The translations under genes and the position numbers were made by a program. A model generated the notes under the pieces. That model saw nothing but the letters and a program-made list of their open reading frames with translations, was not told the origin of the DNA and did not search any database. Below, in pieces: positions 3,030 to 43,891 of a stretch of 64,000 nt of DNA. This stretch comes from Roseibium alexandrii DFL-11 (GTDB lineage Bacteria; Pseudomonadota; Alphaproteobacteria; Rhizobiales; Stappiaceae): the NCBI RefSeq assembly GCF_000158095.2, contig NZ_CM011002.1, forward strand, positions 4,873,703 to 4,937,702. Direction: 5' to 3'. Within the stretch, counting starts at the first letter, position 1, and each line of letters opens with the position of its first letter.

Positions 3030-3888
3030 ATTCTGCGTGGGCTTCACTATACCAAATGAGCTCGGCCAATTGAGGGGTAACTTGAAACCTTCCCTCTTTT
3101 GACCGGTTGATTTCGAGCGGCATTTCGAAGGTTGGGGTCAGTGTCTTTTCCGAAAAGGCATCCTCAAGCGAACCGTGCCGCACCTTCGACCCATTTTTCA
3201 TAACAAGGATCTTGTCTGCAAAAGCGGCTGTTAGGTTCAGGTCATGCATTACTGCGATCACACCGCCGCCGCGCCGGGCATAGTCCTTTGCAAGTTTCAT
3301 GATTTGATACTGGTGTTTGATATCGAGGCTCGACACCGGCTCATCCAGGAATAGCCAGCGCGGCGTTCCATCTGCCGCAACGGGATCCCAAACCTGGCAA
3401 ACCACGCGGGCTAAGTGTGCCCGTTGTTGTTCACCGCCGGACAAGTCTTGATAGGTGCGGGCTTCAAACCCCGGAAGACCAACAAGGGCCAAGGCTTCAG
3501 CAATACGGTGAGCCCGTGCAAGGCGGCCTTGCCTCCGGTCCAGAATGCCGAGACCAATGACTTCCGAAACTGTGAGCGGAAACGACAGGTGGCTTGCTTG
3601 GGGCAATACGCCCCTTGCCAGCGCTTGAGCTTCCGGCGACAGGCTTGCAACTTCGTGTCCGCCCAACTGAATGCTGCCTGAATAGGGCCGCTCTCCGGTG
3701 ATCGCCTTTAAAAGTGTTGTCTTGCCGGACCCGCTGGGTCCGATGATGGCCAACAACTCTCCAGCGTAAGCGCTGAAATACATATCGTTTACAATGCAGC
3801 TGCTGCCCAATGTGACTTTCACGTCCTTGACATCCAGGGATTTGACATGGGCGGCGACATTTTGAGTGAGAACGGAAGGATTGCTCAT
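2989..3888 (-). CDS. hmuV: Hemin ABC importer, ATP-binding protein
   Basis: This 299-residue nucleotide-binding subunit powers heme import through HmuU. Visible motifs are Walker A GPSGSGKTT, the signature LSGGEQQRAHLAR, Walker B WLFLDEPVSSLD and the switch His in AVMHDLN. The insertion between signature and Walker B (VCQVWDPVAADGTPRW) is typical of HmuV proteins. I chose the ATG at 3888 because it overlaps the hmuU stop by 4 nt (ATGA); an upstream in-frame start would run into hmuU. It is the last gene of hmuSTUV, and its end overlaps the convergent M42 gene by 41 nt. Confidence 0.93.
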   Translation of the reverse strand: MSNPSVLTQNVAAHVKSLDVKDVKVTLGSSCIVNDMYFSAYAGELLAIIGPSGSGKTTLLKAITGERPYSGSIQLGGHEVASLSPEAQALARGVLPQASHLSFPLTVSEVIGLGILDRRQGRLARAHRIAEALALVGLPGFEARTYQDLSGGEQQRAHLARVVCQVWDPVAADGTPRWLFLDEPVSSLDIKHQYQIMKLAKDYARRGGGVIAVMHDLNLTAAFADKILVMKNGSKVRHGSLEDAFSEKTLTPTFEMPLEINRSKEGRFQVTPQLAELIWYSEAHAESTTPQHQAPLFPG

Positions 3889-5018
3889 AGGCCGGTCAAT
3901 CCTCTGTTCCGCAGCAATATCCAAAGGAAGAAGGGCGCGCCAACAACGGCAGTGATGATCCCGATCGGAAGTTCTGCAGGCGCAACGACTGTCCGCGCCA
4001 GTGTGTCGGCGCCAATCAACAGGATTGCTCCAAGCAGCGCGGCCGCGGGCAGGAGATATTTATGATCCGGCCCGATCGACAGCCGCAACAGATGTGGTAC
4101 GACGATACCGACAAATCCGATCCCTCCGCTCACGGCGACCGACGCACCGGTTGCCGCTGCGACCAGAAGAATGCTGATGTTCTTGAGCCTTTGGACACGA
4201 ATCCCAATGTGAGCGGCTGCAGCTTCGCCCAGTGTCAGCGCATTAAGGCCTCTCGCAAGGAAAGGTGTTGCCACGAGCATTGTCAGTATGATCGGTGCAG
4301 CGGAAGCCACTTTTTCCCAGTTTGCTCCAGCAAGCGAGCCAAGCCCCCAAAACTGTAGATCGCGGAGTTGACTGTCGTCGGCCACATAGACGAGAAGGCC
4401 GGTGATCGCGCCCGTCAATGCGCCAAGGGCGATCCCGGCCAGCAAGAGTGTGGCAACAGATGTAAAGCCGCCGCGTGTGCCAATCCGGTAGAGCAGCAAT
4501 GTGTTGATGAGCCCGCCTGCAAACGCGGCAAACGGGATTGTATAGATGCCCAGTACCGTCATTACCGGTGCGAGTGCCGCGTTGCCCAGAACGATGAACA
4601 GAGCAGCTCCAAGACCAGCACCTGCAGACACGCCGACTATTCCCGGATCTGCCAATGGATTGCGAAACAATCCCTGCATCACTCCTCCCGAGACAGCGAG
4701 CGCCGCTCCGATCAGCGCGCCGAGAGTGATCCTTGGCAACCGGATGTCCATCACAACGATCCAATCCCGCGCGGAAACCGTCTCCGGCAGCGGCGCGGAC
4801 GGATCCGCCAGATGGCTCGGGATATGAGGCAAAAGGTCGAATACCGGAACCAAGATGGGCCCTGTCGCCAAGCTGCCGATCATCGTGGCAATCAAGAGCA
4901 TGGCGAGTGCTGCGATTACCCAGCGGGCAATGCTTGCCCGATCTCCGTGTTTCAAGGCCGTGAGCCCAAAAATGGCGGCCAGTCCACCCTCTTGCCGCGG
5001 CAAAGACGCATCGGTCAT
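3885..5018 (-). CDS. hmuU: Hemin ABC importer, permease
   Basis: This 377-residue FecCD-family inner-membrane permease has multiple hydrophobic segments and the family hallmarks ITLGALIGAALAVSGGVMQG and RNPLADPGIVGVSAGAGLGA, plus the late GGIGFVGIVVPHLLRL and GADTLART. A hydrophilic N-terminus of about 30 residues precedes the first membrane span. It would form the channel for heme delivered by HmuT and is driven by HmuV. It is separated from hmuT by 5 nt and overlaps hmuV by 4 nt, so it sits in one tightly packed operon transcribed leftward from 7017. Confidence 0.93.
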   Translation of the reverse strand: MTDASLPRQEGGLAAIFGLTALKHGDRASIARWVIAALAMLLIATMIGSLATGPILVPVFDLLPHIPSHLADPSAPLPETVSARDWIVVMDIRLPRITLGALIGAALAVSGGVMQGLFRNPLADPGIVGVSAGAGLGAALFIVLGNAALAPVMTVLGIYTIPFAAFAGGLINTLLLYRIGTRGGFTSVATLLLAGIALGALTGAITGLLVYVADDSQLRDLQFWGLGSLAGANWEKVASAAPIILTMLVATPFLARGLNALTLGEAAAAHIGIRVQRLKNISILLVAAATGASVAVSGGIGFVGIVVPHLLRLSIGPDHKYLLPAAALLGAILLIGADTLARTVVAPAELPIGIITAVVGAPFFLWILLRNRGLTGL

Positions 5019-33581: not shown

Positions 33582-33762
33582 CACGGGGCCGTCGCTGTCT
33601 CTTCTGCCTGTTTCTCGCTCATATGTGCCTGATTTTTAACCGTGCATAGGATTTTAGCATTTGATCCATTGAAGCGATGCGATCTGTCATCCGCCTAATG
33701 CGCTGTTTTTGTTATAGATCTTAGATTTTTCTGCAACTGGCACCGCCCTTGCTTTGTTCTCT

Positions 33763-33894
33763 CTTGTGCAGCGCGCCTAGGGATCCGGTCACACGACGCA
33801 GGACCGAGAGGTGCAAGCCGGGCAAGCAGATCGCGATGATCTCACATAGCCCGGTGACACGGCGGGACAAAAACCCGGGAGACAACTGCACGAG
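33763..33894 (+). promoter_or_regulatory. Guanidine-I (ykkC) riboswitch
   Basis: The conserved elements are in order: CTAGGGATCCGG (33777-33788), GGACCGAGAG (33801-33810), and the near-invariant 3' block ACACGGCGGGAC, AAAA, ACCCGGGAGA over 33857-33882. P1 can be formed by CTTGTGCAG (33763-33771) with CTGCACGAG (33886-33894). This matches the guanidine-I aptamer class, which binds guanidinium and turns on detoxification or uptake genes. It precedes the ABC binding-protein gene by 98 nt, so the whole downstream operon is probably guanidine-induced. The rest of 33582-33762 shows no gene. Confidence 0.95.
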
Positions 33895-33915
33895 GTTTCG
33901 CGCGCGCGAACCTTC
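33892..33915 (+). terminator. Candidate expression-platform hairpin of the guanidine riboswitch
   Basis: GAGGTTTCGCGC (33892-33903) can pair with GCGCGAACCTTC (33904-33915) with one mismatch and one G-U pair. Its 5' arm shares GAG with the 3' strand of P1, so aptamer and hairpin compete. It lacks a clear U-run, so it may act as a weak or factor-assisted terminator. A second small hairpin (GCCCT at 33950-33954 with AGGGC at 33966-33970) lies just before the AGGAGA ribosome site at 33978-33983. Confidence 0.5.
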
Positions 33916-33992
33916 CTCCCGGACGTGCGCAGAAAACCTCATGACGGAAGCCCTCGGGATCTCTCAGGGCCCAAGACAGGAGACGCGCACAG

Positions 33993-35051
33993 ATGTTGAA
34001 ATCAATCGCCAAGGCTTCCCTACTCGCTGCAGCGCTTTCAATGCCCCTCTCATTTTCTGCTCAGGCGGAAGTCAAAACTGACTTCAAAGTCTGCTGGTCA
34101 ATCTATGTCGGCTGGATGCCCTGGGGCTATCTGCAAGACAGTGGCATCATGAAGAAGTGGGCCGACAAATACGGCATTGATGTCGAGATTGTGCAGATCA
34201 ACGACTATGTGGAATCGATCAATCAGTACACCGCCGGTGAATATGATGGCTGTTCCATGACCAACATGGATGCGCTCTCCATCCCGGCGGGCGGTGGTGT
34301 TGACACAACAGCGCTGATCGTCGGTGACTACTCCAATGGCAATGACGGGATCATCCTGAAGGACGAGACAGAGCTTGCCGAGATCAAGGGGCAGACGGTC
34401 AACCTCGTTGAACTCTCGGTTTCTCATTACCTGCTCGCGCGTGCACTTGATACCGTCGGGCTGACCGAGAGGGATCTGACCGTCGTCAATACGTCGGACG
34501 CCGACATGATCGCAGCCTATGCAACGGCGGATGTCACATCGGTCGTCACCTGGAATCCGCTTTTGTCTGAGATCGAAGCGCAGCCCAACGCAACCAAGGT
34601 GTTCGACAGTGCAGGTATCCCGGGCGAAATCATCGACATCATGATGGTCAACACGGAAACACTGGCTGACAATCCAGCCTTCGGCAAAGCGCTCACTGGT
34701 GCCTGGTACGAAGTGATGGATCTCATGGCAGAAGGCGATGAAACAGCCTTGACCGCGATGGCTGAAGCTTCCGGGACCGATCTTGCGGGCTACAAGGCGC
34801 AGCTCGCCACAACGAAGATGTTTTATACACCGGCCGAGGCCGTGGAGTTCTCCAAGTCAGCCGAGCTTCCCAAAACGATGAAATTCGTTGCCGAGTTCCT
34901 GTTTGACAAGGGCATTCTTGGAGAAGGGGCCCCAAGTCCGGAGTTTGTCGGGGTCTCCTTTGCCGACGGTACGGTTTATGGCGACAGTAACAACGTGAAA
35001 CTCCGCTTCGATCCGAGCTTCATAGAAATGGCTGCCAGCGGTTCGCTGTGA
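33993..35051 (+). CDS. ABC importer substrate-binding protein, guanidine/urea-carboxylase-region type
   Basis: This 352-residue periplasmic protein has a signal peptide ending at SFSAQAEV. It resembles the binding proteins annotated as putative urea transporters of the urea-carboxylase region (TIGR03427), which are now understood as guanidine-associated. The mature start FKVCWSIYVGWMPWGYLQDS is rich in Trp/Tyr, as expected for binding a planar cation. It directly follows the guanidine-I riboswitch, so guanidinium is the likely ligand. AGGAGA lies 9 nt before the ATG. A repeat element separates it from the permease gene. Confidence 0.88.
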   Translation: MLKSIAKASLLAAALSMPLSFSAQAEVKTDFKVCWSIYVGWMPWGYLQDSGIMKKWADKYGIDVEIVQINDYVESINQYTAGEYDGCSMTNMDALSIPAGGGVDTTALIVGDYSNGNDGIILKDETELAEIKGQTVNLVELSVSHYLLARALDTVGLTERDLTVVNTSDADMIAAYATADVTSVVTWNPLLSEIEAQPNATKVFDSAGIPGEIIDIMMVNTETLADNPAFGKALTGAWYEVMDLMAEGDETALTAMAEASGTDLAGYKAQLATTKMFYTPAEAVEFSKSAELPKTMKFVAEFLFDKGILGEGAPSPEFVGVSFADGTVYGDSNNVKLRFDPSFIEMAASGSL

Positions 35052-35095
35052 TCGGATAACCCGATGGCAGGGTTTTCTTGCACTGGTGTATCAAA

Positions 35096-35212
35096 CTTCG
35101 TCATTGCCGGACTTGATCCGGCAATCCATGCCGCGGCATCGCCGCCCGATCAGCCTCGCTGTTTTGCAAGGTCACGGAATGGATTACCCGGTCGAGCCGG
35201 GTAATGACGAAG
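35096..35212. repeat. Alphaproteobacterial palindromic intergenic repeat
   Basis: Two 34-nt arms, 35096-35129 and 35179-35212, form a terminal inverted repeat: both start from the outside with CTTCGTCATT and end with AATCCAT, with internal small palindromes (GCCGGACTTGATCCGGC and ACCCGGTCGAGCCGGGT). Such GTCATTGCCGG-type elements are common dispersed repeats in alphaproteobacterial intergenic DNA. It lies between the binding-protein and permease genes of the guanidine operon. A further inverted repeat follows (ATCCCGGAC at 35241-35249, GTCCGGGAT at 35264-35272), perhaps part of the same element class. Confidence 0.75.
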
Positions 35213-35334
35213 GAAGAGAGACAGTGCCACGATCTTCGTGATCCCGGACCTAAGTACCGAGCCGTCCGGGATTGCGAACAACATGTAGCCTTCTGACTTT
35301 GACGCCCCTGTTTAAGGAGTAGACGGATCCCTTC

Positions 35335-36156
35335 ATGCGCCTCATAAACCGAACTCCGTCGCGGTTTGCCGCTGTAGCCTTGGGACTGCTTCCCTTTGTG
35401 GCGACGATCGTGACTTACGCGATTGCCAGTCACTACAGGCGGCTCGACAATCCAGCCGACAAGCTTTTGCCCTCCCTTGAGAGCATGGGGCAGGCTTTCT
35501 GGCGGATGGCAGCTGTTCCGGACCGGCGCTCCGGCGATCTGTTGTTGTGGATCGACACCTTCGACAGTCTGATGCGCCTCGGAACCGGAATGGCGGTCTC
35601 AACGCTCCTGGCGATATTCTTTGGGATCGGTATCGGGTTTATTCCGCACATACGAAGCGCTCTTGCCCCTTACATCGCAACGTTTTCACTCATACCGCCG
35701 ATAACCATCCTGCCGATCCTGTTCATAACATTCGGACTTGGCGAAGTGTCGAAGATCGCTCTGATTGTGATCGGGACTGCGCCAGTCATGATCCGTGCGA
35801 CAGCGCAGGCGGTGCTGGATATTCCGCGCGAGATGATCATCAAGGCCGAGACCCTTGGCGCCTCGGTCTGGCAGATGATCACCCGGCTGGTGTTGCCGCA
35901 AGTCCTTCCAAAACTGATCACGGCCTTGCGCCTCGGGCTCGTCCCGGCCTGGATCTTCCTCATTTCTGCAGAGGCGATCGCGTCCACCACGGGCCTTGGC
36001 TACCGCATTTTCCTGGTTCGGCGCTATCTCGCAATGGATGTCATCCTTCCATATGTCGTCTGGATCACGCTGCTGGCGTTTATTCTGGACCGGTTGCTGC
36101 TCCTCCTGTCCAAGCGGGCCTTCCGGTGGAACCACATGGGAGGTGCCGCGCTATGA
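35335..36156 (+). CDS. ABC importer permease (guanidine system)
   Basis: This 273-residue BPD permease has about six spans and the EAA-type segment KAETLGASVWQMITRLVLPQ. Its sequence is of the nitrate/taurine group, like permeases next to urea-carboxylase or guanidine genes. It overlaps the ATPase gene by 4 nt. An AAGGAG lies rather far (about 16 nt) from the ATG at 35335, so the start is moderately certain. The 283-nt gap before it, filled by repeat elements, is unusual for a transporter operon. Confidence 0.87.
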   Translation: MRLINRTPSRFAAVALGLLPFVATIVTYAIASHYRRLDNPADKLLPSLESMGQAFWRMAAVPDRRSGDLLLWIDTFDSLMRLGTGMAVSTLLAIFFGIGIGFIPHIRSALAPYIATFSLIPPITILPILFITFGLGEVSKIALIVIGTAPVMIRATAQAVLDIPREMIIKAETLGASVWQMITRLVLPQVLPKLITALRLGLVPAWIFLISAEAIASTTGLGYRIFLVRRYLAMDVILPYVVWITLLAFILDRLLLLLSKRAFRWNHMGGAAL

Positions 36157-36974
36157 CCGTCTCTGCAAAACTCTCCGTTCAAGGGTTGTCGAAATACTAT
36201 GACGGCAATCCCGTCCTCGAGCGGATCGCTCTTGAGGTGGATGCCGGGTCGTTTTGCACGATTGTGGGCGCGTCCGGTTGCGGCAAATCCACGTTCCTGC
36301 GGATGCTGCTTTCCCAAGAGCATCCGACCCATGGAGAAATCCTGCTTGACGGGATGCTGCTGCCCAAGGAGCCCACACCGGATCGCGGCATCGTTTTCCA
36401 AAAATACTCGGTCTTTACCCACCTGACCGTCGTCGAAAACCTGATCCTGGCCCAGGAGTTCGAGCAGGCACCGCGACTTGGCAAACTGTTAGGTGCGCGC
36501 CGGAAGACGGCTGTTAAACAGATTGAAGATGTCCTTGAGCGGATCGGTCTGGCAGCGGCGAGAGACAAATACCCGGCGCAGCTGTCCGGGGGGATGCAGC
36601 AGCGCCTCGCCATCGCGCAGGCCTTGATCAAGAAGCCCTCCATTCTGCTGTTGGATGAGCCGTTCGGTGCGCTCGACCCCGGTATCCGCCTCGACATGCA
36701 CGATCTTCTGATCGGTCTTTGGAAAGAGACGGGCATGACGATTTTCATGGTGACCCACGACATCCATGAAGCCTTCAAGCTCGGCACGCGGCTGCTCGTT
36801 TTCGACAAGATCAGACATGACCCGCAGGCGCCAGAGGCCTATGGCGCAACCATCACTTACGACCTTCCACTCTCTGACCAATCCGGCGGCGAGAAAAATG
36901 CACCTGCCGATATCGCGAGCACCATCCGATCAGCCCCAAAACCCGACATTCAGATTTCACAAAAGACGCATTGA
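36153..36974 (+). CDS. ABC importer ATP-binding protein (guanidine system)
   Basis: This 273-residue ATPase has Walker A GASGCGKSTFLRM, signature QLSGGMQQRLAIAQAL, Walker B ILLLDEPFGALDPGIR and switch His MVTHDIHEAF. The C-terminal extension after residue 235 (SGGEKNAPADIASTIRSAPK) is hydrophilic and not part of the ATPase core. I chose ATG 36153, which overlaps the permease stop (ATGA); the frame is open further upstream only as an out-of-frame shadow of the permease. With the binding protein and permease it forms a complete guanidine importer. Confidence 0.9.
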   Translation: MTVSAKLSVQGLSKYYDGNPVLERIALEVDAGSFCTIVGASGCGKSTFLRMLLSQEHPTHGEILLDGMLLPKEPTPDRGIVFQKYSVFTHLTVVENLILAQEFEQAPRLGKLLGARRKTAVKQIEDVLERIGLAAARDKYPAQLSGGMQQRLAIAQALIKKPSILLLDEPFGALDPGIRLDMHDLLIGLWKETGMTIFMVTHDIHEAFKLGTRLLVFDKIRHDPQAPEAYGATITYDLPLSDQSGGEKNAPADIASTIRSAPKPDIQISQKTH

Positions 36975-36982
36975 GGAACGCC

Positions 36983-38221
36983 ATGAGCATCTTTCGTCCA
37001 GACGGTCCGTCTACCTGGCAACGCGCAGCCGGGTTACTGGAACGAGCCAAGACCGAACGCCAACACCATCCTGATTTCGACAAGCTTCAGCTGCGCGGCT
37101 GGAAGGCTGCGGAGAAAGAGGGAATGCTGCCCTCGGCTGCCTGGGAAAAGGAAAAGGCCTGGGCTTTGCGTATGGGCCTGACCGGCTCGGACAGTCTCAC
37201 AGATAAGTCCATTCCGACCTTTGCGCGGGGAGAACTGCCCCACTATGCCGGCATCAACACATTCCTGAAAGCGCCTTACATCGAAGACGTCACGCAGGTT
37301 GGAGCCTACGATGCGGCGGTTATTGGAATTCCATTCGATGGTGGCACCACCTACCGGCCGGGAACCCGGTTTGGCCCGCAAGGCGTCCGCAAAATCTCCG
37401 CGCTCTACACGCCTTACAATTACGAGATGGGTGTCGATCTCCGAGAACAAATGACCCTGTGCGACGTCGGCGATATCTTCACGATTCCCGCCAATATCGA
37501 AAAGACCTTCGACCAAATTACGCGGGCCGTGTCGCACGTTGCCTCTTCGGGTGCGCTGCCGATCATGATTGGCGGCGATCATTCCATCGGCTTCCCGTGT
37601 GTTCGAGGCATTGCCCAGTGCACCTCCAAGCGCATCGGCATTGTCCATTTCGACCGGCATATTGATATCCAGGAAAAGGATCTTGATGAACGCATGCACA
37701 CCACGCCGTGGTTCCATGCGACGGATCTTGTCAATGTCCCGGCGGTCAATCTAGTCCAGATTGGTATTGGCGGCTGGCAAGTTCCGCGCGAAGGTGTTGA
37801 AGTCGCCCGCGAACGTAACACCAATATCTTTACGATGCGCGATGTTGAGGAACTCGGTTTGGCGGAAACCGCAGCGCGGGCTTTGGAACTCGCTTGGAAG
37901 GACGCGGACGCCGTCTACATTTCCTTTGACATCGACAGTGTCGACTGCGGATTTGTTCCCGGCACGGGCTGGCCGGAACCGGGCGGTTTCCTGCCCAGGG
38001 AAGCGCTGGAACTGGTTTCCCTGGTCGCAAAGGAAGGCATTTGCGGGCTTGAGGTCGTCGAGGTCTCGCCGCCCTACGATTGCTCCGACATCACCGCGCT
38101 TCTGGCAACGCGCGTGATCGTCGATGTGCTGGGCACACTCGTCTCTCACGGCAAGATGGGGTCGCACAAATCCATTATCGACAAGCCGGTTTCGATCCCG
38201 GCCGGACCGGATGTGGAGTAA
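36983..38221 (+). CDS. gdmH: Ureohydrolase-family enzyme, probable Ni-dependent guanidine hydrolase
   Basis: This protein of 412 residues belongs to the arginase/agmatinase superfamily. Metal ligands are visible: GGDHS (Asp199, His200), FDRHID (Asp224, His226, Asp228) and FDIDSVD (Asp316, Asp318). The usual DAHxD motif reads DRHID. An N-terminal extension of about 95 residues precedes the catalytic core, as in guanidine hydrolase GdmH and unlike typical agmatinases of about 300 residues. Position downstream of a guanidine-I riboswitch and importer strongly favours guanidine to urea plus ammonia. GAGGAA precedes the ATG at 36983. Automated pipelines would probably name it agmatinase. Confidence 0.82.
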   Translation: MSIFRPDGPSTWQRAAGLLERAKTERQHHPDFDKLQLRGWKAAEKEGMLPSAAWEKEKAWALRMGLTGSDSLTDKSIPTFARGELPHYAGINTFLKAPYIEDVTQVGAYDAAVIGIPFDGGTTYRPGTRFGPQGVRKISALYTPYNYEMGVDLREQMTLCDVGDIFTIPANIEKTFDQITRAVSHVASSGALPIMIGGDHSIGFPCVRGIAQCTSKRIGIVHFDRHIDIQEKDLDERMHTTPWFHATDLVNVPAVNLVQIGIGGWQVPREGVEVARERNTNIFTMRDVEELGLAETAARALELAWKDADAVYISFDIDSVDCGFVPGTGWPEPGGFLPREALELVSLVAKEGICGLEVVEVSPPYDCSDITALLATRVIVDVLGTLVSHGKMGSHKSIIDKPVSIPAGPDVE

Positions 38222-38225
38222 CACC

Positions 38226-38696
38226 ATGGGGCAAAGCCATTCACATCTCGGCCATCACCACCACCATGATCACGATCATGCTCATCCGCACGATCATAAT
38301 CATGGAGGCCCGGATCATCTGCATTCTCATGTCCACGGGACGTCTGCGTCTGAACGCGCCGAAGAATTGCAAACGCTGTCCGCCAGCTTCATCGACGGTT
38401 TCCGGCAAGCCGAGGACAAGACCAGTTATCTCCGGATCGCCGGTATCCCGTTTCAAAAGGAAGGCGCTGACGGCTTAGTGCAGCATCTTGTCGATGCGCA
38501 GATCGTCAGCAATTGGCAGATCGGCACAGCCTCGCCTGCCTTTGCATCGCGCGAACTGGTCTACATGCCGTTCCCCGGTGCCATGGTCGAGCAGCGTGAA
38601 ACCATGACATTCACGTTTGTCTCCCTGACCGAACGGGCGGACATCGATCTGCTGACGTTGTTGTCCCATCGTCTTGAAGCTGGAGCTGGCGAGTAG
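38226..38696 (+). CDS. His-rich N-terminal protein, candidate nickel chaperone for the guanidine hydrolase
   Basis: This 156-residue protein has 17 His within its first 38 residues (runs such as HHHHHDHDHAHPHDHNH), like the metal-storing tails of HypB, UreE and SlyD. The following part (residues about 40-150, for example AGIPFQKEGADGLVQHLVDA) is not a HypA, HypB or UreE domain I recognise. It starts 4 nt after the hydrolase stop with GGAG upstream, so the two are co-translated. GdmH in cyanobacteria needs HypA/HypB-like accessory proteins for nickel; this protein could fill that role here. Function is inferred from composition and context only. Confidence 0.72.
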   Translation: MGQSHSHLGHHHHHDHDHAHPHDHNHGGPDHLHSHVHGTSASERAEELQTLSASFIDGFRQAEDKTSYLRIAGIPFQKEGADGLVQHLVDAQIVSNWQIGTASPAFASRELVYMPFPGAMVEQRETMTFTFVSLTERADIDLLTLLSHRLEAGAGE

Positions 38697-39006: not shown

Positions 39007-39312
39007 ATGCTTGTTTGCAGTTGCAACGTTATCTCAAAGTCGGCAGTTGAATATGTCATCCAGAGCTTGCTTGATGAGGATCAGTGGCAGTTGATCACGC
39101 CGGGCCGGGTGTATCACGCCATGAAGAAGCGCGGCCAATGCTGCAGCTGTTTTCCGAACATCATCACTATTATTGTCGCCGAGACTGAAAAGTATCATCG
39201 TCAGGCCGAGACACCTGAAGCGGAAATTATCCCGTTTATTGCCAAAATCCGGTCTGAATACGATCGTACTCAGGCTGTTCGGAACCAACTCTCAGATGCG
39301 CGCAGCGCTTGA
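39007..39312 (+). CDS. bfd: Bacterioferritin-associated ferredoxin (BFD-type [2Fe-2S])
   Basis: This 101-residue protein has the BFD-type cluster ligands Cys4-x-Cys6 and Cys45-x-x-Cys48 (MLVCSCNVI and RGQCCSCFPN). Bfd reduces bacterioferritin to release stored iron. The C-terminal 40 residues are a hydrophilic extension beyond the E. coli length of about 64. No bacterioferritin gene lies in the window. The gene stands alone with its own upstream region, as expected for an iron-starvation gene. Confidence 0.88.
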   Translation: MLVCSCNVISKSAVEYVIQSLLDEDQWQLITPGRVYHAMKKRGQCCSCFPNIITIIVAETEKYHRQAETPEAEIIPFIAKIRSEYDRTQAVRNQLSDARSA

Positions 39313-39325: not shown

Positions 39326-39760
39326 TTTTCGAGACCCACAAGGATGGTTGACCGACTCATTCGAGGCACCGCCAATACTCGTCGTCCGGTTCCTGGGCAC
39401 AATGGCAGCGGCTTTGGGTGCCCGTTGCGTTTCTGAATTCTCGATGCCTTTGGTTTGGAGGCGACAATCGCCCGAGCCGATTATGTGTTTCACGATAATA
39501 TCTAGAACTCGGTGTTTACCTTCCGGATAGGTTGGTCCCCGATACTCTTTTGCTAGAAAACAGTGATTTGGATTCGGTTGGCACACTGTCGGCAACTGAG
39601 GTTCCGTGTGCAATTCGAGCGCAAGGACGTCAGTTTCCGAAAAGGTACCTCAAGTAGGGAAGTGCGTTGGATGACGCTTATGACTGAGCGCCAGACTAGG
39701 ATTTAGAGCGATTTCTTAAAAAACCTTTGATGCCATCGCCGGTAAGAATTGGAGCTTATT
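39326..39760. other. Intergenic region with no recognised gene
   Basis: About 435 nt separate bfd from the large repeat protein. Short open frames of 60-125 codons exist on both strands but show no recognisable family, signal peptide or good ribosome site. The region must carry the promoter of the large gene, whose ribosome site GGAG is at 39751-39754. Confidence 0.5.
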
Positions 39761-42700
39761 ATGACTGCCCTCAATATCAGCCTGACAGAGACCCTCACAA
39801 CCAAGCTCACCAATCCCGGCGCTTATGCGTATGCCGTTTACTTCGCACCAGGAACAGATGGAACAATCCAACCCTTTTGGACGACACTCATCAACAACGG
39901 GGTTGTCAACGGATTGAGCTCTATCGAAGGGCAGTCAGGATACTCTGCAACACTGGATCTTCCAGAGCCTTATAATGGTGGCAAGGTCTATGTTCTTGTT
40001 CAAAGCCAATCACCGACCGCGACGCAGACCGACTTGACGAGCATCATAACCCAGGAAAGCGATATCAACTGGGAGAATGCACTAACCAACCAGTACCGCG
40101 TCGACAGTTTTGAAGTGTCCCTGCTTAACCAGACCGGGGATGCTGGAAACCTCACCTCGGTGCAGGGCTTCGGGCTGCCGATGGAGCTTTACATTCCCTA
40201 TGGAACGGACAGTTCCGGCGCGCTGATCACGCAGAGCCGAGGGTACGATGTAGACGGCAACACCATTTTTACGTCAGTTTCGGATATCCACGCAAATGCC
40301 GTCGAAAAATTCACAACTGGTCCGCTGGCCGGGACCTATCGTGCCGCGATTTCGCCTGCCGAAGCGGTTGCGTTGGCCGAGCAAAACCAGATCCCGGATG
40401 TCTTTGCCCAATCCGACTGGACTGCTTATGTCGACAGCTTGAAAAAAGACACAGGCATCATGCTGTCGGGGTTCTTCAACGGAGCTGCCGATGCGAATGG
40501 GATCTACCACAATGGCGGCTTTTTCGGATACGGGCTGGAATGGTCTGAAACAGACAACGCGTTTTGGCTCAACCCTGTCGCTGAAAGTCACATCAAGGGC
40601 TCGATAAAGATCACTGCCGAGCAACTTGCGAACAGCATTTATTCAACGCTCGGCGATGTCGAAATCTATTCGAACCGCGACGATGAAACGCCCTACACGA
40701 TTCAAGGCGCTTCCAGCGCGGAGATGAATACTGGGGCCAACAATCAATGGGGTACGGTTCTCACCCAGGTATTGACCGGCTTCACCGGCGGTTATTATGG
40801 AACATCAGGCAAATCGCTCAATGCTGATGTTACTGAGAGCATTGACCTGAACAAGAACTGGAACTGGGATCCGACCTACGCCTTCGGCAAAAACCTCTCT
40901 GGTGATGCCGCAGTCTTCCAGGATCCATATGCTGAGCTGTTTTTCTTCAACTCGAATTCGTACGGTTCCGGTTACTCCGACAATCTCATGAGCGCCTATG
41001 CGGAAGGCGGGCCACTCATCCCGGTCTACTACAATGGCGCCAATGTCCAGACGATTGATCTGACCATTTACGATGATAGTGAGACGCCGTCCGGCTACAC
41101 CCAGCCTGTCATTTACAATTACATCGCTCCGCCGGGTCACAGCGATCTGTTTCGCGATCAGTTCGATGCCACATCATATTCGCCTGCTGCTTTGAGCAAC
41201 ACCAAAGGCGCAAACATAAGCCTCAACTTTTTCAATCAGAATATCGTCTTGAAGGAGGATACGCCGGTCGAACTCAGGGTCTTTGTTGGTAACGAGGAGG
41301 GTATTCCAGTATTCCGGACCATAAAGTTTCAACCAAAGAAGGACGAAACACTTTGGCAAAATTGGACCATCACTGAAAACACCAAGACGGGCGAATGGGA
41401 AGCGGCATATGGCACTGATAAAACTGTCCAGACCGACGGGGCGATGGTCATCTCCAACATGCCCATCGCCGAAAATGGGACGGTTTGGTATCAGCTGGTT
41501 GTCGGGTCGGGGGATACCGCGAAGACAGTCAATGTCTATGCAGAGACACAGGACAGCCTGTTTGTAAATCCTGCGGTTTCCGGACAGAGTGGCAGCGTCG
41601 CAGCTGATGGCCTGGTCATGGTTTCCCCGGAAACGTCAACCGATGACACTATCATCAATTTTGCATTGGACTTCCTTTATAGCGGCAGCACGACGCTGCA
41701 TCCCTCCCTGTTTACCTGGAATTCCAATACATCCCATCTTTCTCAGCTGGCTGAGCCGGAGGCCGTTGTCGCCGGAACGCTGTCTGACGGTGCGTTTTCG
41801 GTGCTCGCCGGCCAGACGAATCTGGATACCAATGCCGTATCCACAAATCAATCAAACTTGGTGTTCGGGTGGACGGGTGAAAATCCGCTCGCTGCCCCTG
41901 ATAGCAATAACTGGCTGAACCAGTACACCAACAAGATCAGCGCGCAGAACCTCGCGCAAATCACGTTCACGCAGAGTGGTAGCCCGGACCTGGCACCGGT
42001 CCTTGCCACGGCTGACATCGACGGCCGCTGGAGCACGACGTCCGGAAAAGCGCTGGGCAATGGTACCTACACGGTGCTGATGACCGAATACTTCAACACG
42101 GGCAATCAAGTCGGCAGCCAGATTGGCCGGACTTCGAAGGAGCTCACTGTCACGGTTGCTCTGGATGAGTTGTCTCTCGTGCAGTCGTCGACCAATGCCG
42201 GCCTGACCTTTGAAACCGCTTCAAATCCTGACAGTCAATCCAGCGGCAATTGGGTTGAGGTTACTCTTGGTTCACAAGGTCCAGTGTCCGGCTCGGCCAT
42301 TCTGCTTTATGTCGTGGATGCATCTGGCAATTATGTCGGCCGAGATGGTTCAACAGGTGGTGATGTCACCCTGGCGGAGGACATCCGGGGTGTTCTGGGT
42401 GGCGGGCAATCCGGAGCTGCTGCAGCCCAGCAATCAGTTTATCTGGAGGCGGGGCAGGAGATCCGTTTCGCACAACTAACCGGTCAAGGCACAGTCGATA
42501 CCAGCTTGACGGCTGCGTTCCAGGCCGCCGCCGGTGGCGGATATGACATTACCCTGGGCGATGTCACGCTCAGTGCGGCTGTTCAAAACACACTGGATGA
42601 AGCAGCTATCCTCGCCGACGCGCAGAGGCAAACCGACATTCCGCTTGTATATCTGGAACAGGGCACACTCCATGATATCACTGCGTCGGGAACCAGCACT

Positions 42701-43891
42701 TTGCATCACAAGTTCGGTTTTGTACGCGTTGATGTTGGAACCGACGGCAGCTTGAAGATTGACGGAAAAACGCTGGCAGAAGTCCGGGCGTTGGGGGCCA
42801 AAGCCAAAGACCTTGTGGATGGCGGTTTTGAATATCTCTATTCAGGGACTTCGGCGACAGCAGCATGGACCGTTTCGGGTGCAACAGGTTTCTATGCGCC
42901 GATTTTCTTTGCCGAAGATGGGGCGCCGTATTTCATCGGTGACAGCACATTGGATGGTGCTGGTCAGATCCGGATTTTAGGTGAGAACACGTTCGGTCTT
43001 GAAAACAGCTCTGGAACAAGCGGGTCTGACGCGGATTATGCAGATCTTGTCATCGCGTTCGACACAGGCCGGAGCGCGACCGGGAACGATTTGGTTGCCG
43101 GCAGCAGCAACGATGATGTGCTTCTTGGCAGCACCGACAACTACGCGCTGAATGGCGGCAAAAAACTGGACACGGTTGTCTATGACCGTACGAAGGATGA
43201 GGTTGGTCTGTCAGGCACCCGAAGCGGGGTCACTGTTACGGATGGGGATGGGGCAGACACGCTGGTCGCGGTTGAACTGGTCGTGTTTACTGGTGCGAAC
43301 GGAACCGGTCAGGACCGGGTATTGGTCATCAATCCTGACAGCTCCACATCGACTGGAACCTATGGCTTTAACGAAGCCGTTTACCTGACGACGCATGCGG
43401 ATGTTGCGGCAGCTGTTGCAGCCGGTGCGTTTTCAAGTGGTGCTGATCACTATGCCCTGCACGGTAAATCTGAGGACCGTACCGCGGACCTTCTGTTCGA
43501 TGCTGAGTTTTATCTCGCTGACAATGCGGATGTCGCAGCTGCGGTTGCTGCTGGTGTTTTTGCCTCGGCCTCAAAGCATTACGAGTTGTTCGGCTCGTCC
43601 GAGAACCGGTCTGTCAATCCGCTTTTTGATGCTGAGTATTATCTGGCGCAAAACACGGATGTTGCTCAAGCGATTGCGGACGGTATGTTTGTCAGCGCTT
43701 ATCAGCATTTCCTCAATCACGGCGACCAGGAAGGCAGAGCTGCGTCAATCTACTTCGACACTGCCGTGTACCGGAATGAGCAGGGGCTTGACAGTGGCAC
43801 TAATGCGCTGGAACATTTCCTGCTTATCGGCCTGCCACAAGGCATTACTGCTCCCACCGCAGCAGATTTCAATGCAAGCGGGATGGTTTGA
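39761..43891 (+). CDS. Large secreted-type repeat protein, N-terminal beta-rich region possibly GH64/beta-1,3-glucanase-like
   Basis: This 1376-residue acidic, Asn/Thr/Ser-rich protein lacks an N-terminal signal peptide, which suits type I secretion by a C-terminal signal. The first 400 residues (YAYAVYFAPGTDGTIQPFWT, later VQGFGLPMELYIPYGTDSSG) resemble GH64/thaumatin-like beta-1,3-glucanases in style; this is a weak resemblance. About residues 1105-1190 are reminiscent of RTX-type modules (GNDLVAGSSNDDVLLGSTDN). The C-terminus carries repeats of about 45 residues (FDAEYYLAQNTDVAQAI type). Start ATG 39761 has GGAG 6 nt upstream. No secretion genes lie nearby. A role in adhesion or polysaccharide binding or degradation is possible. 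Confidence 0.65.
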   Translation: MTALNISLTETLTTKLTNPGAYAYAVYFAPGTDGTIQPFWTTLINNGVVNGLSSIEGQSGYSATLDLPEPYNGGKVYVLVQSQSPTATQTDLTSIITQESDINWENALTNQYRVDSFEVSLLNQTGDAGNLTSVQGFGLPMELYIPYGTDSSGALITQSRGYDVDGNTIFTSVSDIHANAVEKFTTGPLAGTYRAAISPAEAVALAEQNQIPDVFAQSDWTAYVDSLKKDTGIMLSGFFNGAADANGIYHNGGFFGYGLEWSETDNAFWLNPVAESHIKGSIKITAEQLANSIYSTLGDVEIYSNRDDETPYTIQGASSAEMNTGANNQWGTVLTQVLTGFTGGYYGTSGKSLNADVTESIDLNKNWNWDPTYAFGKNLSGDAAVFQDPYAELFFFNSNSYGSGYSDNLMSAYAEGGPLIPVYYNGANVQTIDLTIYDDSETPSGYTQPVIYNYIAPPGHSDLFRDQFDATSYSPAALSNTKGANISLNFFNQNIVLKEDTPVELRVFVGNEEGIPVFRTIKFQPKKDETLWQNWTITENTKTGEWEAAYGTDKTVQTDGAMVISNMPIAENGTVWYQLVVGSGDTAKTVNVYAETQDSLFVNPAVSGQSGSVAADGLVMVSPETSTDDTIINFALDFLYSGSTTLHPSLFTWNSNTSHLSQLAEPEAVVAGTLSDGAFSVLAGQTNLDTNAVSTNQSNLVFGWTGENPLAAPDSNNWLNQYTNKISAQNLAQITFTQSGSPDLAPVLATADIDGRWSTTSGKALGNGTYTVLMTEYFNTGNQVGSQIGRTSKELTVTVALDELSLVQSSTNAGLTFETASNPDSQSSGNWVEVTLGSQGPVSGSAILLYVVDASGNYVGRDGSTGGDVTLAEDIRGVLGGGQSGAAAAQQSVYLEAGQEIRFAQLTGQGTVDTSLTAAFQAAAGGGYDITLGDVTLSAAVQNTLDEAAILADAQRQTDIPLVYLEQGTLHDITASGTSTLHHKFGFVRVDVGTDGSLKIDGKTLAEVRALGAKAKDLVDGGFEYLYSGTSATAAWTVSGATGFYAPIFFAEDGAPYFIGDSTLDGAGQIRILGENTFGLENSSGTSGSDADYADLVIAFDTGRSATGNDLVAGSSNDDVLLGSTDNYALNGGKKLDTVVYDRTKDEVGLSGTRSGVTVTDGDGADTLVAVELVVFTGANGTGQDRVLVINPDSSTSTGTYGFNEAVYLTTHADVAAAVAAGAFSSGADHYALHGKSEDRTADLLFDAEFYLADNADVAAAVAAGVFASASKHYELFGSSENRSVNPLFDAEYYLAQNTDVAQAIADGMFVSAYQHFLNHGDQEGRAASIYFDTAVYRNEQGLDSGTNALEHFLLIGLPQGITAPTAADFNASGMV
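43361..43850 (+). repeat. Tandem repeats encoding FDAxxYLxxNxDVAxAV units
   Basis: The C-terminal 160 residues of the large protein contain three to four units of about 45 residues. Each has a Tyr-Leu then Asn-x-Asp-Val-Ala core, followed by a HY/HF-x-x-x-G-x-x-E-x-R segment (HYALHGKSEDR, HYELFGSSENR, HFLNHGDQEGR). The last unit is degenerate. Such units occur at the ends of type-I-secreted proteins. Confidence 0.75.

Follow-up and report, generated by a model that had tools for sequence, protein, structure and literature searches.

The hydrolysis of guanidine is a recently recognised nitrogen route, and operons that serve it have been characterised in cyanobacteria and in comammox bacteria. 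The gdmH/sll1077 operon of Synechocystis PCC 6803 comprises a guanidine-I riboswitch, an ATP-binding cassette (ABC) importer and a GdmH-type enzyme whose product, urea, goes to urease (PMC12186494, PMC8390497). The Synechocystis guanidinase is encoded with two nickel-loading accessory proteins (PMC12186494), and operons with GdmH often include hypA and hypB (PMC8390497). The metformin and dimethylguanidine hydrolases (MefH, DmgH) are also nickel ureohydrolases with co-expressed nickel accessory genes, named hypA, hypB and hupE, but they are heteromeric, and activation of the metformin hydrolase needs co-expressed HypA/HypB (PMC11399263). Nitrospira inopinata, a comammox bacterium, likewise has a guanidine-I (ykkC-yxkD) riboswitch and a GdmH-type enzyme with an N-terminal extension; its operon, however, encodes an APC permease, no nickel-loading chaperones were found and the loading mechanism is described as unclear, so that the nickel supply of the comammox enzyme is an open point in print (PMC11410670). 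Here we describe an operon of this known kind from Roseibium alexandrii DFL-11, found in a stretch of 64,000 nucleotides (contig NZ_CM011002.1, positions 4,873,703 to 4,937,702), to which we refer as the window. Like the Synechocystis operon it has the riboswitch, an ABC importer and a GdmH-type enzyme; unlike operons of that kind, which carry hypA and hypB, it ends in a gene for a His-rich protein that we name HisR. This alphaproteobacterial form, with HisR instead of neighbouring hypA/hypB, is a variant that we did not find in the titles and abstracts searched.

The operon consists of five genes, all on the plus strand and downstream of the aptamer:

33766..33883, plus strand: guanidine-I riboswitch aptamer, RF00442 (cmscan, 63.0 bits, E 7.8e-9, full length 1-107)
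33993..35051, plus strand: periplasmic substrate-binding protein of the presumed guanidine importer (TIGR03427, 553.4 bits, cut-off 333.9)
35335..36156, plus strand: ABC importer permease (PF00528, 73.8 bits)
36153..36974, plus strand: ABC importer ATPase (PF00005, 111.9 bits; ATG at 36153)
36983..38221, plus strand: predicted guanidine hydrolase GdmH, agmatinase by its database name (PDB scores, Trp of GTGWPEPGG, DRHID, long N-terminus, tree)
38226..38696, plus strand: HisR, a His-rich tail and a core of no known family; proposed nickel-delivery protein

The coordinates and gene content (aptamer, importer, ureohydrolase and His-rich gene) had been given correctly in an earlier note made from the letters of this DNA, which passed over the His-rich gene, the least explained part of the operon. 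We consider it rather probable that this is a guanidine-inducible operon for nitrogen use in which HisR delivers nickel to GdmH. Guanidine would bind the leader RNA and switch the operon on, the ABC importer would bring in further guanidine, GdmH, presumably a nickel enzyme, would split it into urea and ammonia, and urease encoded elsewhere in the genome would finish the urea. For nickel, the operon would bring its own protein, HisR: Ni2+ would collect at the His tail, and the core, which includes a loop at about residues 97-120, would attach to GdmH and hand the metal over to the di-metal site. HisR would thereby do what the HypA/HypB pair does for cyanobacterial GdmH and metformin hydrolase. 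The riboswitch, the importer family, the identity of GdmH, urease and the linkage of HisR to GdmH are the parts of this scheme supported by sequence, and the whole role of HisR, including nickel and the binding of GdmH, is our proposal. We read HisR as a loader because it is rich in His and coupled to a presumed nickel enzyme, in operons from which the usual loaders are missing.

The coupling was followed in Pseudomonadota genomes, plasmid records and phage records, and the window protein was also compared with genome_contigs. Among 398 Pseudomonadota genomes sampled across the phylum, seven encode GdmH (E<=1e-100), and the HisR profile matches exactly those seven. Twelve of 385 genomes sampled within the class encode a GdmH-type enzyme, and in 11 of these 12 HisR lies directly downstream; both samples include the window genome and share genome G107 as well, and the sampled genomes are related rather than independent, no p-value being attached to these counts. 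The exception, G079, has an enzyme that is 54-58% identical, in which Thr replaces the guanidinase Trp and the DERMH motif is followed by an insertion containing His; its locus (L035:8139-9437) gives no match to the three proteins of the window importer and has no riboswitch at the gathering score. This enzyme probably acts on another substrate. A gene for an NMT1-type binding protein adjoins it, with isochorismatase and LysR genes nearby. HisR without GdmH was indicated in four genomes of the class: G125 holds a shortened remnant with stops beside a MacB-type exporter; in G365 (L047:7019-8035) HisR follows immediately on the riboswitch and the opening part of the binding protein, with the intervening genes gone, apparently a decayed operon, though perhaps an assembly join; and the weak matches in G307 (3e-4) and G366 (5e-4) were not recovered by the profile on the fetched stretches. 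GdmH is present in 11 plasmid records, and all seven alphaproteobacterial ones, five of which belong to a single species, Sinorhizobium fredii, have an adjoining HisR. The phage records gave no match to HisR.

The His-rich protein at the operon end begins 4 nucleotides past the ureohydrolase stop. In the window its tail has 17 His in 54 residues and its core about 100 residues. The window protein has no match in Pfam or NCBIfam, 17 core sequences have none in Pfam, and their profile has none in PDB sequences. The core is coding sequence under purifying selection: of six comparisons one is saturated, and the other five give a ratio of nonsynonymous to synonymous substitution of 0.07-0.21. The tail, across 20 members, has from 1 to 28 His, and its HLHSH motif is retained in 16 of them. 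It is therefore the constrained core that performs the conserved function, the variable tail being an accessory. The members have 0-2 Cys each and therefore, unlike HypA, cannot hold a pair of CxxC motifs. The loop at about residues 97-120 is conserved, and it is modelled with low confidence, as a flexible segment. Two AlphaFold models and four fold searches returned nothing convincing, which is no proof of a new fold. The UreE proteins of these genomes (two examples) resemble HisR in having a conserved core and a His-rich tail, but no sequence relation was seen: against sets of only four and two sequences, hhalign gave the core profile a probability of 0.1% against HypA and 0.8% against UreE, and kinship to either was rejected. 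A literature search found no title or abstract that describes HisR, also when guanidine, riboswitch, nickel and histidine-rich were combined; supplements lay outside the search and may hold an earlier mention.

Twenty-two genomes with both GdmH and HisR were examined for HypA, and 12 of them lack it. For HypB, 27 such genomes were examined (28 with G079): 11 have a match over the cut-off, and the best matches under it resemble UreG, many of them lying near ureC. At the loci themselves, one HypA and one HypB were compared by tblastn with the window and with 29 other stretches, 8-17 kb long, surrounding gdmH or a homologous gene. No HypA was found in these 30 loci, and HypB matched in two alone (L036 and L044, 28-29% identity), with urease genes close by in those genomes; we read these two as proteins of the UreG kind. 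The idea that tail length complements HypA was dropped: three of the four tail-poor members come from genomes in which HypA was matched (only partially in G124), but in several Roseibium genomes HypA coexists with long tails.

The earlier claim of a guanidine-I aptamer was checked with the covariance model proposed for it. The model matches, though the score only equals the gathering score of 63. At that score the aptamer is the sole Rfam match across the whole window, and at E<=0.001 it is the one RF00442 match reported for the 5.46 Mb genome; a relaxed threshold added, within 33700-33995, just a 15-bit snoRNA match on the opposite strand and no better family. Orthologous operons include ones with stronger aptamers, of up to 87.6 bits. 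The riboswitch scan took in 21 HisR operons including that of the window and left out L012, the three alphaproteobacterial plasmid loci L054-L056, and L063-L067. RF00442 is at the gathering score in 15 of the 21 and below it in three more (L002, 60.1; L006, 58.9; L045, 41.1 bits), while L040 starts too close to a contig end for a call. The order of the five genes is the same in all 11 HisR-bearing loci retrieved from genome_contigs (Roseibium, Stappia, Thalassospira, Cognatishimia and others), although these were selected by HisR itself and include a near-identical relative of the window, L012. Ten of these loci were scanned: eight have an upstream aptamer that reaches the gathering score, and the other two are just under it. 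Since the gene order recurs in 11 of 11 loci with the aptamer ahead of eight of ten, the arrangement is not due to chance.

Downstream of the aptamer the leader holds one further element:

33916..33922, plus strand: CTCCCGG, candidate switching element, complementary to CCGGGAG at the aptamer 3' end

This pairing of 7 bp was equalled in 2 of 300 shuffles. Sixteen leaders were compared, namely those of the 15 operons with an aptamer at the gathering score and the decayed L047: in ten, a complement of 7-8 bp to the aptamer 3' end lies 28-46 nucleotides downstream (L039 is marginal, at 34 of 300 shuffles), and in the remaining six the complement is no better than in shuffles. Such a complement suggests a mutually exclusive fold. 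Hiding of the ribosome-binding site was considered as the switch and found no support: predicted accessibility of the site showed no consistent change between the full and the aptamer-less leader, the values being unreliable for four of the 16 leaders (L003, L008, L011 and L044), where the start was taken from the edge of a BLAST match.

Several observations weigh against the proposal that HisR loads GdmH in a guanidine-induced operon. HypA is present in 10 of the 22 genomes, and therefore HisR is not simply its replacement. Urease occurs in every tested genome with HisR and GdmH, and the nickel chaperones of urease could help. No nickel-loading protein was found in comammox, yet its GdmH works (PMC11410670), and four actinobacterial plasmids carry GdmH-like genes, three of them with the guanidinase Trp, with no HisR nearby. 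The tail is almost lost in four of the 20 HisR members (1-7 His), and metal storage by the tail therefore cannot be the essential function. The fold models of HisR are middling (pLDDT 73-75), with no solid match. As for the leader, the window aptamer merely reaches its cut-off, and the HisR operons L036 and L043 have no RF00442 match at E 0.01. We judge the chances about even that HisR is a so far undescribed, dedicated nickel-insertion family for guanidine hydrolase which dispenses with the HypA/HypB system.

It is possible, but in our view unlikely, that the operon serves guanidine hydrolysis as set out above, with HisR only storing or buffering nickel and making no contact with GdmH. Tails with up to 28 His fit such a role, and Helicobacter is known to have storage proteins (Hpn) of such composition. 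However, the core is kept, and is under purifying selection, even where the tail has nearly gone, and HisR pairs with GdmH although another nickel enzyme, urease, was matched in all 25 genomes tested for it. Somewhat less likely still, HisR might be a regulatory or structural partner subunit that controls the activity or assembly of GdmH, with an incidental His tail. Its gene follows gdmH at a distance of 4 nucleotides and co-occurs with it, and the conserved loop that is modelled with low confidence would be suited to partner binding; but the guanidinase of N. inopinata, reportedly similar to that of Synechocystis, is built as a homohexamer and needs no such subunit (PMC11410670), and the HLHSH motif of the tail is kept in most members. 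Nickel delivery by HisR, if true, would explain the loading of guanidinases in alphaproteobacteria without HypA and HypB, and the linkage of HisR to GdmH in several alphaproteobacterial families, including rhizobia (Sinorhizobium) and marine Roseibium, makes the nickel question testable.

The top matches of the window enzyme among PDB sequences are the two solved guanidinases (7esr/7oi1, 543.3 bits; 9fek, 532 bits), followed at a distance of 365 bits by the next characterised enzyme (1gq6, 178 bits), and 1wog, a true agmatinase, scores 133.7 bits. As the earlier note had described, this is a long-form ureohydrolase with all metal ligands (the motifs GGDHS, DRHxD and SFDIDxxD are intact) and an N-terminal extension. 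The alignment shows GTGWPEPGG and DRHID where three other ureohydrolases have GTGT and DAH, and 119 residues ahead of the GGTTY block versus 31-39 in the fragments of those three, which start about 10 residues short. An N-terminal extension and a Trp that narrows the pocket were reportedly named as guanidinase features by Funck in 2022. The guanidinase Trp is also discussed in the comammox study (PMC11410670). A tree of 30 sequences (25 GdmH-like translations and five PDB fragments, true agmatinases not among them) groups the window enzyme with Synechocystis GdmH and the N. inopinata guanidinase and leaves proclavaminate amidinohydrolase, guanidinobutyrase and guanidinopropionase outside this group (branch 100/100). 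The 20 HisR-associated alphaproteobacterial enzymes form one clade (100/99) that adjoins Synechocystis GdmH (92/92). The phylogeny suggested in the earlier note thus places the enzyme with guanidinases, agmatinases being compared through the PDB score alone, and the sequence evidence agrees with its call of guanidine hydrolase and argues against agmatinase. That the enzyme is instead an agmatinase or another guanidino-compound hydrolase, only indirectly linked to the riboswitch, is highly improbable. In its favour, the enzyme only narrowly misses the agmatinase cut-off of TIGR01230 in NCBIfam (173.2 versus 174.3 bits), the window aptamer does not exceed its own cut-off and two related operons include a dioxygenase that may act on methylguanidine; but the guanidinase Trp, the gap in bits and the stronger aptamers found ahead of orthologous operons speak against it. 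For annotation, a TIGR03427 importer, an 'agmatinase' with GTGWPEPGG and a hypothetical protein of the HisR type together suggest guanidine use.

The note had further stated that guanidine carboxylase is absent and that guanidine is hydrolysed to urea and ammonia. In the whole window genome no urea or guanidine carboxylase passes the cut-off, and the matches below it cover only parts of the model, at its biotin carboxylase and biotin ends; the search did not extend to allophanate hydrolase. Urease alpha was matched in all 25 genomes, 24 times over the cut-off and in G079 as a partial match; the 25 include the window genome, and G125 and G365, which have no GdmH. Because urease is present in the genome, a route from guanidine through urea to ammonia that bypasses the carboxylase is plausible.

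The substrate-binding protein of the importer, which the note had called TIGR03427-like, passes the equivalog cut-off of that family, and guanidine would be the substrate of the importer. From the permease onward, neighbouring genes overlap, as at the ATGA shared by the permease stop and the ATPase start, or are spaced by 4-8 nucleotides. Between the binding protein and the permease, a gap of 283 nucleotides in the window (about 75 in the 98% relative L012) holds a repeat:

35097..35212, plus strand: imperfect palindromic repeat resembling repetitive extragenic palindromes (REP-like), ends set by eye

It has 11 matches in its own genome at E<=1e-5, itself counted, and REP-like repeats can favour the message of the upstream gene. 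In the two Roseibium operons with a dioxygenase, a 2-oxoglutarate/Fe(II) enzyme (PF14226, PF03171; L005:2966-4018 and L007:2325-3380), its gene lies between those for the binding protein and the permease; in L007 it is followed, at about 3388-4074, by a gene for a protein of about 228 residues that has no Pfam match. By family and place alone, the arrangement calls to mind MgdH/MgdL, the methylguanidine hydroxylase and lyase encoded in carboxylase operons (PMC12508155), although in L005 and L007 it accompanies the hydrolase route. On the actinobacterial plasmid of Rubrobacter indicoceani (L050:7052-14469), which gives no match to the window ABC importer, HypA or HisR, the GdmH-like gene stands beside genes for a sodium:solute symporter, formamidase and urease. 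Downstream of the operon, the window encodes a possible BFD-like [2Fe-2S] protein at 39007-39312, below the Pfam cut-off (20.5 versus 26 bits), and an open reading frame of 1380 residues at 39749-43891.

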